Source of the DNA: Xanthomonas sp. DAR 35659
Lineage (GTDB): Bacteria; Pseudomonadota; Gammaproteobacteria; Xanthomonadales; Xanthomonadaceae
Direction: 5' to 3'
DNA length: 64,000 nucleotides
Assembly (NCBI RefSeq): GCF_041242975.1
Contig: NZ_CP162488.1
Location: 3,090,001-3,154,000 of the forward strand
Each line of letters begins with the position of its first letter. Position 1 is the stretch's first letter. Under the pieces are notes generated by a model. That model made no database searches, had not been told where the DNA came from, and was given only the letters and a program-made list of their open reading frames with translations. The position numbers and the translations under genes were made by a program. This document shows positions 25,641 to 30,281 of the stretch, one piece after another.

Positions 25641-26705
25641 ATGCGCAAGGGCACCGCACTGGTGGTCGGGGTCACCGGCATCTCCGGCTACAACCTGGCG
25701 AACGTGCTCGTCGCCGATGGCTGGACCGTGTACGGCCTGGCACGCCGGCCGCTTGCGCAGGAGGGCGTGATTCCGGTCGCGGCCGACCTGCTCGACCGCC
25801 AGGCGACCGTGGCCGCATTGCGCAGGCTGCCGATCACCCACGTGTTCTTCTGCACCTGGACGCGGCGCGACACCGAGAAGGAAAACGTCGCCGCCAACGG
25901 CGCGATGCTGCGCCACCTGCGCGAGGGTCTGGACGGCGCGGCGCTGCAGCACATGGCGCTGGTCACCGGCACCAAACACTATCTGGGCTCGTTCGAGCAC
26001 TACGGCACCGGCAAGGCGGAGACGCCATTCCGCGAAAGCGAGCCGCGCCAGCCGGGCGAGAATTTCTACTACACGCTGGAAGACCTGCTGTTCGACGCCG
26101 CCGCGCGCCACGGCTTCGGCTGGAGCGTGCATCGCTCGCACACCATGATCGGCCAGGCCAACGGCAGCAATGCGATGAACATGGGCGTGACCCTGGCGGT
26201 GTATGCGACGCTGTGCAAGCACATTGGGCAGCCGTTCGTGTTCCCAGGCTCGCGCGCGCAGTGGGACAGCCTCACCGACCTCACCGACGCCGGCCTGCTC
26301 GGCCGCCAGCTGGCCTGGGCCGCGACCAGTCCGGCCGCGCGCAACCAGGCCTTCAACACCGTCAACGGCGACGTGTTCCGCTGGCGCTGGATGTGGGCCG
26401 AGATCGCCGCGTTCTTCGGCCTGGAGGCGGCGCCGTATCCGGATGCGCCGATGCCGCTGCAACCGCGCCTGCAGCACACCGCGCCGGCGCTGTGGCGCGA
26501 GATCGCCGAGCGCCATGGGCTGGTGCAGGCGGACGTGGACCAGTTGGCGTCTTGGTGGCATACCGACGCCGACCTCGGCCGCGAGATCGAGTGCGTGAAC
26601 GACATGACCAAGAGTCGCGACCTCGGTTTCCTCGGCTACTACGACAGCCGCGCCTCGTTCCTGGAACTGTTCGCGCGGCTGCGCGCGCAGCGGGTGATTC
26701 CCTGA
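25641..26705 (+). CDS. PRISE-type SDR reductase (progesterone 5-beta-reductase/iridoid synthase-like)
   Basis: A 354-residue NAD(P)H-dependent oxidoreductase of the extended SDR class. The N-terminal Rossmann motif is VGVTGISGYNLANVL (10-24). The family motifs FFCTWTRRDTEKENVAANG and ALVTGTKHYLGSFEHYG are present, with the PRISE catalytic Lys in TGTKHY and Tyr in ENFYYTLEDLL, plus WSVHRSHTMIG. In plants the family reduces enones; the bacterial substrate is unknown. Stand-alone gene, with an ATG preceded by AAAGGA. REP-like repeats follow it. Confidence 0.87.
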   Translation: MRKGTALVVGVTGISGYNLANVLVADGWTVYGLARRPLAQEGVIPVAADLLDRQATVAALRRLPITHVFFCTWTRRDTEKENVAANGAMLRHLREGLDGAALQHMALVTGTKHYLGSFEHYGTGKAETPFRESEPRQPGENFYYTLEDLLFDAAARHGFGWSVHRSHTMIGQANGSNAMNMGVTLAVYATLCKHIGQPFVFPGSRAQWDSLTDLTDAGLLGRQLAWAATSPAARNQAFNTVNGDVFRWRWMWAEIAAFFGLEAAPYPDAPMPLQPRLQHTAPALWREIAERHGLVQADVDQLASWWHTDADLGREIECVNDMTKSRDLGFLGYYDSRASFLELFARLRAQRVIP

Positions 26706-26998
26706 CGGTCGCAGAGTCGCAGCATCGGCTGTTTAGCTGCTGCCGCTGCGAGAGCGGCGGCGCGGGATTGCCGAATTGATGGGATTTTAGGGTCTTCGTC
26801 CGGTGGGTCTGGGAGCGACTTCGGTCGCGACGAGCGAAGCATTGGAGGTGCCGCGACCGAACCGCGTCGGGACTGAAGTCTCTCCCACAGTCCGCCGCTC
26901 TCGCTGTGGGAGCGACTCCGCGTGGCTTCGGCCCATCGGCCACCGGTTGTTCCATGACCGGACAAACTCCGGCTCCGTTCGTCGCGGCTGAAGCCGCT
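26706..26998. repeat. Intergenic REP-like palindromes left of the IS110 element
   Basis: Contains degenerate palindromes of the family GGGAGCGACTTCGGTCGCGAC (26811-26831, seen in part) and its inverse, a second GTGGGAGCGACT near 26905, and at 26981-26998 the left half of a GTCGCGGCTGAAGCCGCT repeat cut by the IS110 insertion. These belong to the REP/GTAG-type repeats common in Xanthomonas and Stenotrophomonas. Confidence 0.75.
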
Positions 26999-27214
26999 TG
27001 TGTCTTATTAGGCTCTATCGTTATAGGTGAGAGCGGAGTGCGGCAGGCCGTTTAGCCGCAGTGCCAAACGAGCACGAGTAGGAGTCAGTGCCGCCGCACT
27101 CCGTTTCTCCTGCCTGACAAGCCCGAACAGTTGCCCGAGCCACGAACTCGAACTCCACAAGCGTGGGCATTGGCAGGAGCGCTCTCGTCCTTGAGTCTAC
27201 TGCGGAGAACGTCT
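26999..27214 (+). ncRNA. Predicted bridge RNA of the IS110 element
   Basis: Two stem-closed internal loops are visible. Target loop: perfect 10-bp stem 27034-27043/27094-27103, distal hairpin GTGC/GCAC (27061-27064/27072-27075), left guide AGCCGC at 27054-27059 identical to the left flank (26992-26997), and right guide GTAGGAG at 27078-27084, the reverse complement of the right flank CTCCTAC (28146-28152). Donor loop: 8-bp stem CTCCTGCC/GGCAGGAG (27107-27114/27172-27179), inner GCCC/GGGC, distal CGAG/CTCG, left guide ACAGTT (27127-27132) identical to the element's right end (28138-28143), and right guide CACAAG (27156-27161), the complement of CTTGTG at the left junction. RNA ends are not defined; the core is about 27030-27185. 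Confidence 0.8.
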
Positions 27215-28138
27215 ATGCGGCGCTTTGTCGGGATCGATGTTGCCAAGGCCGAACTGGTCATTCATGTTCTGCCGGACCACGTGGCCTGGACCCAGCCCAA
27301 CACGCTGCAAGGACGGCGTGAGTTGGTCCAGCGTCTGTCCACGATGGCTTGTGAGCGGATCGTGTTGGAAGCCAGTGGCGGCTATGAGACGGCGGTGCTG
27401 CGGGCTCTGCGCCAGGCCGACCTGCCGGCGGTGCGCATGTCTGCCAAGCGCCCGCGTGCGTTGGCCAACGCCCTAGGCCTGCATGCCAAGACCGACGCCC
27501 TGGACGCGCGGCTGCTGGCCATCGCGGCTGAGCACATCCCGACCACGCCTACGACCGTGCTGCCAGAGCACCTGCAGCAGCTACGCGAACTGCTCGACCT
27601 GCGCACCACCGTGGTCGGCCAGCGCGATGCCCATCGGCGCCGCCTGGATCACATCACCAGTCCCGACGTGCGCCACCAGTGCGAGTTGGTCATCGCCCTG
27701 CTGAATCAACAGATCCGGGCCCTGGATCGGCAGGTCGAGCAACAGACCAGAACATGTTCGACCCTGCCCAAGGTCCCAGGGGTCGGAGCGATCCTGCGCG
27801 CCACCCTGGCCGCACGGCTGCCGGAACTGGGAACGCTGCCGCCGCGCAAGCTCGCCGCCCTGGTCGGGCTGGCCCCGTTCAATCGCGACAGCGGCGGCTG
27901 GAACGGTCAACGCCGCATCACAGGCGGGCGCGCTGACGTGCGACGGGTCCTGTACATGGCCACATGGGCCTCCATCCGCGCAGGGTCGCCCCTGGCCAAC
28001 ACCTACGCGCGCCTGAAGGCTGCAGGCAAACCGTCCAAGGTCGCCATCGTCGCTTGCATGCACAAGTTCCTGCGCTGGCTCAATGCCATCGCACGCGATC
28101 AGACCTCCTACGCGCCCCCGGTCATCGCTGCTGCATGA
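27215..28138 (+). CDS. IS110-family DEDD/serine recombinase (transposase)
   Basis: A 307-residue enzyme. The RuvC-like N-terminal domain has the acidic tetrad D8 (FVGIDVAK), E52 (IVLEASGGYE), D94 and D97 (KTDALDARL). A coiled-coil middle (about 120-180) is followed by the Transposase_20 domain with PKVPGVGAILRATLA and a candidate catalytic serine S226 in NRDSGGWNGQRRITGGRADV. Family enzymes cut and rejoin DNA at a dinucleotide core through the serine, guided by a bridge RNA from the element's non-coding end. All key residues are present, so it is probably active. Confidence 0.95.
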   Translation: MRRFVGIDVAKAELVIHVLPDHVAWTQPNTLQGRRELVQRLSTMACERIVLEASGGYETAVLRALRQADLPAVRMSAKRPRALANALGLHAKTDALDARLLAIAAEHIPTTPTTVLPEHLQQLRELLDLRTTVVGQRDAHRRRLDHITSPDVRHQCELVIALLNQQIRALDRQVEQQTRTCSTLPKVPGVGAILRATLAARLPELGTLPPRKLAALVGLAPFNRDSGGWNGQRRITGGRADVRRVLYMATWASIRAGSPLANTYARLKAAGKPSKVAIVACMHKFLRWLNAIARDQTSYAPPVIAAA

Positions 28139-28147
28139 CAGTTAACT

Positions 28148-28260
28148 CCTACAGGGGGCGGCTGGGTGCACTGTAGGAGCGGCTTCAGCCGCGACCGATC
28201 GCCGGGGCCATCATGGTTCCGGGATGCATTGGTCGCGGCTGGGGGCCGCGGCCATCCGGG
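28148..28260. repeat. REP-like repeat pair right of IS110
   Basis: Right half of the split repeat (CCTACAGGGGGCGGC), then an inverted intact copy TGTAGGAGCGGCTTCAGCCG at 28172-28191 continuing CGACC, then a degenerate GGTCGCGGCTGGGGGCCGCG near 28230. Before the insertion the first two would have formed a REP doublet in opposite orientation. Confidence 0.8.
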
Positions 28261-28288
28261 CACGCGTCCCACGCCGGCACGCACGCCG

Positions 28289-28999
28289 CTACACGTCGGC
28301 CGGCGCCAGTTCGCGCAGCCGGCCCTGGTGCAGTTCCAGCACGCGGTCCAGCTTGCGCGCCAGGCCGCGGTCGTGGGTGACCAGGGCCAGGCTGGTGCCG
28401 TGCGCGCGATTGAGCTCGAGCATCAGCGCGAACACGTTGGCCGCGGTCTTGTCGTCGAGGTTGCCGGTGGGCTCGTCGCCGAGCACGCAGGCCGGACGAT
28501 TGACCAGCGCGCGCGCCACCGCCGCACGCTGGCGTTCGCCGCCGGACAGCTCGCCCGGCTTGTGTTCCAGGCGATGGCCCAGCCCAACCGACTCCAGCAA
28601 GGCGCGCGCGCGCGCCTCGGCGTCCTTGACCACCGCGCCGCCCAGCAGCACCGGCATCATCACGTTCTCCAGCGCGGTGAACTCCGGCAGCAGGTGATGG
28701 AACTGGTAGACGAAGCCGAGCGAGCGATTGCGCAACCGCCCGCGCGCCGCATCCGACAACGCCGACATGCGCTGCCCGGCCACGTAGACCTCGCCCGCGG
28801 TCGGCACGTCGAGCCCGCCGAGCAGGTGCAGCAGCGTGCTCTTGCCGGCGCCGGAGGCGCCGACGATGGCCACGGTTTCGCCCGGCGCCACGCTCAGGTC
28901 CAGCCCGTCGAACACGGGCGTGCGCATCTTGCCTTCGGCGTAGGTCTTGCCCAGGCCTTCGGCCCGAATCGCCGCGTCCGCGTGCTGTTGCTTCTGCAT
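28289..28999 (-). CDS. lolD: Lipoprotein-releasing ABC transporter ATP-binding protein LolD
   Basis: A 236-residue ATPase that drives release of outer-membrane lipoproteins to LolA. Walker A is [16 protein letters not shown], the signature [15 protein letters not shown], Walker [14 protein letters not shown], with the MacB/LolD-type EPTGNLD. ATG 28999 is preferred over ATG 29044 because the extra 15 codons (reading NRES, GIG) are just a translated GGGAATC repeat array. No normal Shine-Dalgarno precedes it; the start codon itself sits in a GGGAATG unit. It follows lolC/E on the same strand. Confidence 0.94.
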
Positions 29000-29032
29000 T
29001 CCCGATTCCCGATTCCCGATTCCCACTTCCCG
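28997..29032. repeat. GATTCCC heptad array covering the lolD start
   Basis: Four tandem 7-bp units of ATTCCCG/ATTCCCA type. On the lolD strand this reads GGGAATCGGGAATCGGGAAT immediately before and through the ATG, replacing the usual leader. Related arrays occur at 31883-31979, 35743-35767, 40444-40546 and 43233-43377. Confidence 0.8.
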
Positions 29033-29036
29033 GCCC

Positions 29037-30281
29037 TCATTCATAACGCAGCGCCTCCGCCGGTTGCGTGCGCGCCGCGCGCCAGGCCGGATACAGCGTG
29101 GCCAGGAAACTCATCAGCAACGCGACGATGGTGATGACGACCACGTCGTGCGGCTGCATGTCGGTGGGCAGGCCGGTGATGTAGTACACGTCTTCCGGCA
29201 GCAGCTTGATGTTGAACAGCGCCTCGATGCCGGCCAGGATCCGCTCCAGGTTCAAGGTGAGCACGATGCCGCCGATCACGCCGGCGACGGTGCCGATCAC
29301 GCCGATCAGCGTGCCCTGCACCATGAACACCTGCATCACCCCGCCCGGGCTCAAGCCCAACGTGCGCAGGATGGCGATGTCGGCCTGCTTGTCGGTGACC
29401 AGCATCACCTGCGAAGACACCAGGTTGAAGGCGCCCATCGCGATGATCAGCGACAGCAGGATGCCCATCACCGTCTTCTCCATCTTCAGCGACTGGTAGA
29501 GGTTGGCGTTCTCGCGGGTCCAGTCGCTGACCATGTACGGGCCATGCAGGTTCAGCGCCAGGTCGCGCGCCACGTCCCAGGCCAGGTCCATGTTGTGCAG
29601 CTTCAGGCGCACGCCGGTGACGCCGTCGCCCATGCGCAGTACGCGTTGCATGTCCGGCATGCTGGTCACCGCCAGGCCGCGGTCGATCTCGTTGTAGCCG
29701 GCCTCGAAGATGCCGCTGACGGTGAAACGCTTGTAGCGCGGCACCATGCCCATCGGGCTGGCCTGCGGCTCGCCGAGCATCACCACGACCTTGTCGCCCA
29801 CGCCCACGCCCAGCCACAGCGCCAGTTCCTGGCCGAGCAGGATGTTGTAGGAACCCGGGGTGAGGCTGTCGATCGAGCCCTGCTTCATCTTCTGCGCCAG
29901 CACCGAGACCTTGGCTTCCTCGTTGGGCAGGATGCCGCGCACGATCGCCGGCTGGTTGCGCTGGCCGGTGAGCAGCGCTTCCTCCTCGACGTAGGGCGCG
30001 GCGCCGGCGACGCGCGGATCGCGGGTGGCCACGTCCACCGCGTGCTGCCAGTTCTCCATCGGCGCGCCCTGCGCGCTGACCGTGGCGTGCGCCGCCATCT
30101 GCAGCAGGCGGTCGCGGATTTCCTTCTGGAAGCCGCTCATCACCGCCAGGGTGGTGATCAGCACGGTCACGCCCAGGGCGATGCCGAGGATCGAGGCCAT
30201 CGAGATGAAGGAGATGAAGTTGTTGCGGCGCTTGGCGCGCAGGTAGCGCAGGCCGATCGCCACGGGTAAGGGTTTGAACAT
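29037..30281 (-). CDS. lolC: Lipoprotein-releasing ABC transporter permease LolC/LolE
   Basis: A 414-residue inner-membrane permease. An N-terminal helix (about 24-48, [20 protein letters not shown]) is followed by a large periplasmic domain and three C-terminal helices (about 270-300, 315-345, 378-398), the MacB/LolCE topology. The end [16 protein letters not shown] is the family signature. Only one permease gene is next to lolD, so it may form a homodimer as LolF-type systems do, or pair with a distant copy. The gap to lolD holds a heptad repeat array. Confidence 0.93.

Follow-up and report, generated by a model that had tools for sequence, protein, structure and literature searches.

In the window (the whole stretch of 64,000 nucleotides analysed here), the non-coding left end of an IS110 element very probably encodes the bridge RNA of this multicopy element, and the opposite strand of the same region is the Rfam family sX15, which we read as an antisense RNA. 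The reading as a bridge RNA whose REP target can be read off the sequence is supported: two loops carry guides that match target and donor, in the correct order and strand sense. Bridge RNAs have been known since 2024 and the element itself belongs to this known kind; the new parts are the link to sX15 and a possible anti-bridge RNA.

The element, its REP target and the four guides

The borders of the element read ..GAAGCCG-CT|TGTGTC on the left and ACAGTTAA-CT|CCTACAG on the right, so the shared core is CT. The left end is long, as against a short right end that closes 9 bp past the stop codon. In the relative G250, whose left flank is 93% identical to that of the window, the same place is uninterrupted (..GTCGCGGCTGAAGCCGCTCCTACAGGG.. 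and then the inverted copy). Hence the insertion left no scar and occupies one arm of a REP pair, in keeping with the IS110 trait of recombination at a short core with no target duplication. In form the target is close to the GTAGGAG.. REPs that PMC2817692 lists for Xanthomonas and Pseudomonas, and a search of the element's own genome (5.4 Mb, one contig) found the target word GCCGCTCCTAC 449 times, versus 45 times for the same word read backwards as control. With a clean insertion in a REP pair and its empty form in G250, the programmed target can indeed be read directly, as the initial annotation had claimed, and the target choice of an IS110 element becomes readable from raw genome sequence.

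Features of the IS110 element and its surroundings (positions in the window)
Feature	Position	Strand	Remarks
Target REP, left half	26981..26998	+	GTCGCGGCTGAAGCCG + core CT (26997-26998); empty site in G250
IS110 element	26999-28147	+	core CT at both borders
Non-coding left end, 216 bp	26999..27214	+	right donor TGTGTC at 26999-27004
Junction -10 box TATCGT, predicted	27016..27021	+	spacer of 17 bp to the right-end -35 box
Rfam RF02234 sX15 match	27021..27189	-	36.8 bits, under the gathering cut-off of 55; antisense to bridge RNA
Bridge RNA body	27029..27186	+	basal stem GAGAG 27029-27033 / CTCTC 27182-27186
Target-binding loop	27034..27103	+	outer stem 27034-27043/27094-27103; inner hairpin 27061-27064/27072-27075
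Left target guide AGCCGC	27054..27059	+	9-mer from 27051
Right target guide GTAGGAG	27078..27084	+	complement of core CT + CCTAC
Donor-binding loop	27107..27179	+	outer stem 27107-27114/27172-27179
Donor-loop helices	27121-27124/27165-27168; 27137-27139/27147-27149	+	GCCC/GGGC; inner hairpin GAG/CTC
Left donor guide ACAGTTG	27127..27133	+	
Right donor guide CACAAG	27156..27161	+	complement of core CT + TGTG
Conserved TAnnnT (TAGACT), candidate -10 box	27194..27199	-	antisense RNA start near 27187-27189
IS110 recombinase, 307 aa	27215..28138	+	PF01548 + PF02371; NCBIfam 'RNA-guided transposase'
Short right end	28137..28147	+	left donor ACAGTTAA + core CT (28146-28147)
Target REP, right half (CCTACAG), and second, inverted REP of the pair	28148..28195	+	

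The recombinase has relatives in ISCro4 (9t56, E 4e-18) and IS621 (8wt6, E 7e-16), and its candidate active site (D8, E52, D94, D97 and S226) was drawn from alignment to ISCro4, spacing and the residues named for IS621. Judged by its sequence the protein is a member of the IS110 group, with a DEDD RuvC-like domain and a C-terminal domain bearing a predicted catalytic serine. Matches at E 1e-60 or better were found in 18 of 395 Xanthomonadaceae genomes, and Xanthomonas sp. AmX2 carries a relative locus that is 71% identical. A plasmid search with the recombinase of locus L021 gave 2320 records under 60% identity and a single one in the range 60-80%.

The two outer stems proved to be perfect helices of 10 and 8 bp, and the four words that the initial annotation had picked as guides (AGCCGC, GTAGGAG, ACAGTT and CACAAG) lie where it had placed them, each occurring once in 26999-27214. 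The identity of the left donor guide with the element's right end holds at six bases and fails at the seventh base of ACAGTTG: the right end is ACAGTTGACT in 15 of the 16 copies in this genome, and the window copy alone has ACAGTTAACT. A reader free in the choice of words might find such flank matches by chance, and the single 6-mer AGCCGC does turn up in 19% of dinucleotide shuffles of 27010-27214 (n=200000; 2.2%, 5.3% and 6.3% for the other three words singly). All four words in order, however, occurred in 0/200000 shuffles, and relatives have the same layout with different words and again show guide-target agreement; we thus give chance a negligible probability. Since the words were picked after the event, the relatives are the real test of the guides.

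The proposed RNA resembles that of IS621 in its left-end location, its two guide loops, their order LTG-RTG-LDG-RDG and their strand sense, in agreement with the earlier reading of the published plan (PMC11208160, PMC11208158); CT core, REP target and a promoter re-formed at the joined ends are also common to both elements in these accounts. In the IS621 RNA as drawn in PMC11208160, on the other hand, two stem-loops follow one at the 5' end, whereas here a basal GAGAG/CTCTC stem joins both loops in a three-way junction, and guides and host are different. No separate 5' stem-loop was seen in the leader, where a start as predicted, after 27016-27021, would leave no room for one.

Guide-target agreement and fold among relatives

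The sX15 searches supplied 86 loci (46 from RF02234 searches and 40 fetched). Nine of them had no exact donor motif CCG[AG]ACAGTTG and were left out (L094, L099, L100, L101, L103, L106, L109, L112 and L116), as were second, spurious or repeated donor motifs in L001, L095 and L097. From the recombinase search we omitted L117, L135 and L145 (own copies, already in), L147 (duplicate of L125), and L127 and L134 (no full leader). Of the 102 remaining elements 7 were dropped as cut off or containing N, two for lack of a clear left junction and one for an N in the flank. The guide-target test thus covered 92 (42 window-type and 50 sX15-type), with the right side usable in 65. L110 and L133 represent a single place, which reduces the 42 window-type elements to 41 places and the 68 junction elements to 67 and leaves class means unaffected; L035 was kept in an alignment shifted by one base, at a cost to its own score.

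In the window's own clade the targets hardly vary. The right border CT-CCTAC was present in 29/30 fetched loci of relatives of the window recombinase (L129 showed no right end), and the right guide falls into only three near-identical classes. Left guides do change: TGTCGC goes with flank GTCG (L126, L142), TTGCGC goes with flank GGCG (L131, L144), and AGTCGC is found at AGCCG-CT, with one mismatch, in five elements (L122, L124, L125, L140 and L141); in L130 the guide-target fit is poor. Over the eight left-guide classes of this clade the agreement, 4.69 of 8 vs 4.17 when permuted, was not significant (1312/20000).

In the sister clade of sX15-type elements, the left guide scored 4.80 of 7 vs 2.39 permuted (20 classes, 50 elements) and the right guide 4.87 of 7 vs 2.61 permuted (12 classes, 26 elements), each at 0/20000, where permuting classes leaves some relatedness in the statistics. 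The covariation of guides and targets by which the initial annotation had proposed to judge the model is thus found for both guides in the sister clade, but is not significant in the window's clade; the flanks of relatives that carry these guides match them, and are not unrelated as the model's failure would have it.

These results bear on the reading of the leader as a mere 5' untranslated region with a role in controlling translation of the recombinase, with incidental guide matches. The leader does end beside the ribosome site, and for ISPpu9, in work that predates the discovery of bridge RNAs, translation is reported to be under the control of a 244-nt structured 5'-UTR together with an antisense RNA (PMC8450116); guide words that track the flanks in 20 and 12 sister-clade classes are nevertheless hard to place under such a reading, and translation control and guide roles can coexist. 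We therefore regard a leader without guide function as very unlikely and retain the bridge RNA.

Among the targets that the sister-clade guides match are REPs, attC-like sites and others, and natural guide changes track different REP families and attC-like sites. In one subclade (L037, L039-L043, L046, L077-L083 and others) guides are like ATAACGCCT / GTAATTCAG and sites read (G)CTAACGC-CT-GAATTAAGCC or close forms, the site of L042 continuing to GTTAGGC; by its letters this target looks like an integron attC site. In L034, L085 and L105 a left guide with CGGCTCT matches flanks shaped like the Stenotrophomonas REP, whose form is given as TGTAGAGCCGAGC.. (PMC2817692), and guide sequence seems to go with the host's REP family. 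A further target type, around CCAACCC-CT-CTCCCG, occurs in L084, L089, L093, L098 and L108, of which L098 and L108 are decayed copies at one common site in two genomes.

On the donor side, the right donor places G opposite C of the guide in 42/42 window-type elements and A opposite U in 47/51 sX15-type elements (with three G-U and one mismatch), a co-change between the clades that mainly reflects a single event. ACAGTTG, the left donor guide, does not vary across the alignment and served to select every element; the left donor pairing therefore lies outside the covariation test.

Single-sequence folding gave an ordinary result where a stable fold had been expected: the leader folds at -80 kcal/mol (z -1.30), a stability that 23 of 200 shuffles also reach, and in the minimum-energy structure there is pairing within the loops. 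Folding energy was dropped as an uninformative test of the RNA and, the energy being ordinary, structural support comes from covariation. Across 73 distinct sequences the six helices were paired in 92.1% of cells vs 79.4% in shuffled alignments, 19/35 pairs had changes on both sides vs 15.1, and the covariation score of the fold was 0.307 vs 0.110 on shuffling and no more than 0.108 on sliding; further pair types in this alignment were not above shuffles (38 vs 39.2), and helix 4, poorly aligned between clades, was 65.5% paired. Thus the objection that these loops might have no fold did not hold, the fold covarying across relatives. G-U vs A-C cells numbered 61:20 on sense-fold pairs, 21:14 on antisense-fold pairs and 20:12 on pairs in both, counts that favour the bridge strand too weakly to decide and are compatible with a folded antisense RNA. 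Another such count (132:20) was set aside, as one nearly constant G-U pair had inflated it.

The opposite strand and the family sX15

The single Rfam match obtained in 26000-29500 with E no higher than 1 was RF02234 (sX15) on the minus strand, which the initial annotation had missed. Its model positions 1-159 overlie the bridge RNA over the full length. Neither the window nor the other copies in its genome (up to 46 bits) reach the gathering cut-off, and sister-clade elements score up to 183.6 bits; the family's name and description, as supplied with the match, make no mention of an element. The cut-off was passed by 6/8 scanned relatives, including L110, L131 and L128, and failed by L123 and L126. 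L110, L131 and L128 share the window's leader type, and the two clades are therefore joined. Among 395 Xanthomonadaceae genomes RF02234 had matches at E 0.01 in 90 and above the cut-off in 70; in a class-wide sample, 2/369 matched at E 1e-4, both of them Xanthomonadaceae.

Within its own genome the model found 16 places, all of them IS110 elements with near-identical guides and with the recombinase opposite sX15 (16/16); the same arrangement was seen in 24/30 other loci, the remaining six having no match in that search. With six recombinase queries, a match was obtained in 54/70 non-own sX15 loci, and wherever the donor motif allowed orientation (48/48 non-own loci) the recombinase was on the strand opposite sX15. 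In the loci examined, sX15 is the reverse complement of IS110 left ends. That sX15 should instead be an independent small RNA gene which stands beside IS110 by chance, its antisense match being a coincidence, would suit its Rfam entry as a plain sRNA, the 17/54 recombinase matches of under 200 residues (cut off or broken), and the six of 70 loci in which the contig runs on but no recombinase was matched at E 1e-5 (L030, L098, L100, L101, L108 and L113). Yet the whole model overlies the bridge RNA and most loci have the recombinase; of the 16 loci without a match, nine are cut short where their contig ends, for L114 the sequence retrieved lay on the wrong side, and L030, L098 and L108 retain the first recombinase codons. 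We thus consider an independent gene extremely unlikely and take sX15 as the reverse of the IS110 left end, which gives the Rfam family a likely origin and makes sX15 annotations in Xanthomonadaceae probable IS110 ends. L100 and L101 are decayed sX15-like remnants without recombinase, apparently at the same place in two genomes. An Rfam sX9 match (57.8 bits) at L021:1011-1083 adjoins an sX15-type element.

sX15 was reportedly discovered via strand-specific sequencing and Northern blot. Just upstream of its 5' end lies a conserved TAnnnT: read backwards, as ANNNTA, it occurs in 69/71 scored leaders (of 73), 6-11 bases from the stem and between bridge RNA and ribosome site, compared with a mean of 7.9 and a maximum of 18 in 2000 rounds of shuffled leaders, a control for composition and not for relatedness. 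It is missing from L044 and L088, whose recombinase genes are broken or partial. A -35 box to go with this candidate antisense -10 box was looked for and not found, nor was a full promoter on either strand, and a site listing of 26980-27300 gave plus-strand sites only, with no terminator for the antisense RNA; TAnnnT may have another role.

A precedent is ISPpu9, likewise an IS110/IS492 element in REPs, of Pseudomonas, whose antisense RNA Asr9 (~180 nt) covers the leader and has a -10 box overlapping the recombinase ribosome site, whereas the TAnnnT of the window is just upstream of GGAG (PMC8450116). Asr9 is read in PMC8450116 as a translation activator rather than an anti-bridge RNA. Among the papers listed in our literature search, of which PMC6337395 alone dealt with sX15, none was found to link sX15 to IS110. 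By analogy with Asr9, antisense sX15 suggests an 'anti-bridge' RNA. Tentatively, and with some doubt, we propose that Xanthomonadaceae IS110 left ends may combine a bridge RNA made only from the circle with a standing antisense sX15 that would pair with it full length and limit or prime recombination, and that Asr9 might act likewise. Such an antisense partner would be a possible control layer in a system studied for DNA engineering.

The joined ends and the proposed course of insertion

Joining the two ends would place a -35 box before the left-end -10 box, and by sequence a promoter for the bridge RNA appears to be re-formed across the junction, in agreement with the promoter described at the joined ends of IS621 (PMC11208160). 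Among 68 elements with both ends, TTG..T-17-(T/C)AnnnT was fully kept in 36/39 distinct junctions; the exceptions are the window copy, L086 (TTGCTC) and L093 (-10 box CCAAAT). The -35 box is TTGACT in 15/16 own copies and TTAACT in the window copy, whose circle may give less bridge RNA. No such junction-type promoter was found in the integrated window.

Following the IS621 scheme, excision would join the ends and create a promoter that transcribes the left end, and the recombinase would bind the resulting bridge RNA. Loop 1, which matches the target, would pair with both REP strands around the core CT, and loop 2 with the junction between the two ends of the element itself; recombination at CT, catalysed as in IS621, would then insert the element without target duplication, consistent with the scarless site. 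From the opposite strand, sX15 would be transcribed antisense to the bridge RNA, from its own putative start beside the recombinase ribosome site, as homology and position suggest.

The sites of the 16 copies in this genome are nearly uniform: the right flank is CT-CCTACA in 16/16 and the left flank AGCCG-CT in 15/16, L008 having AACCG-CT. L011 and L014 have about 60 bases of left flank in common and differ beyond them and in their right flanks, as after rearrangement.
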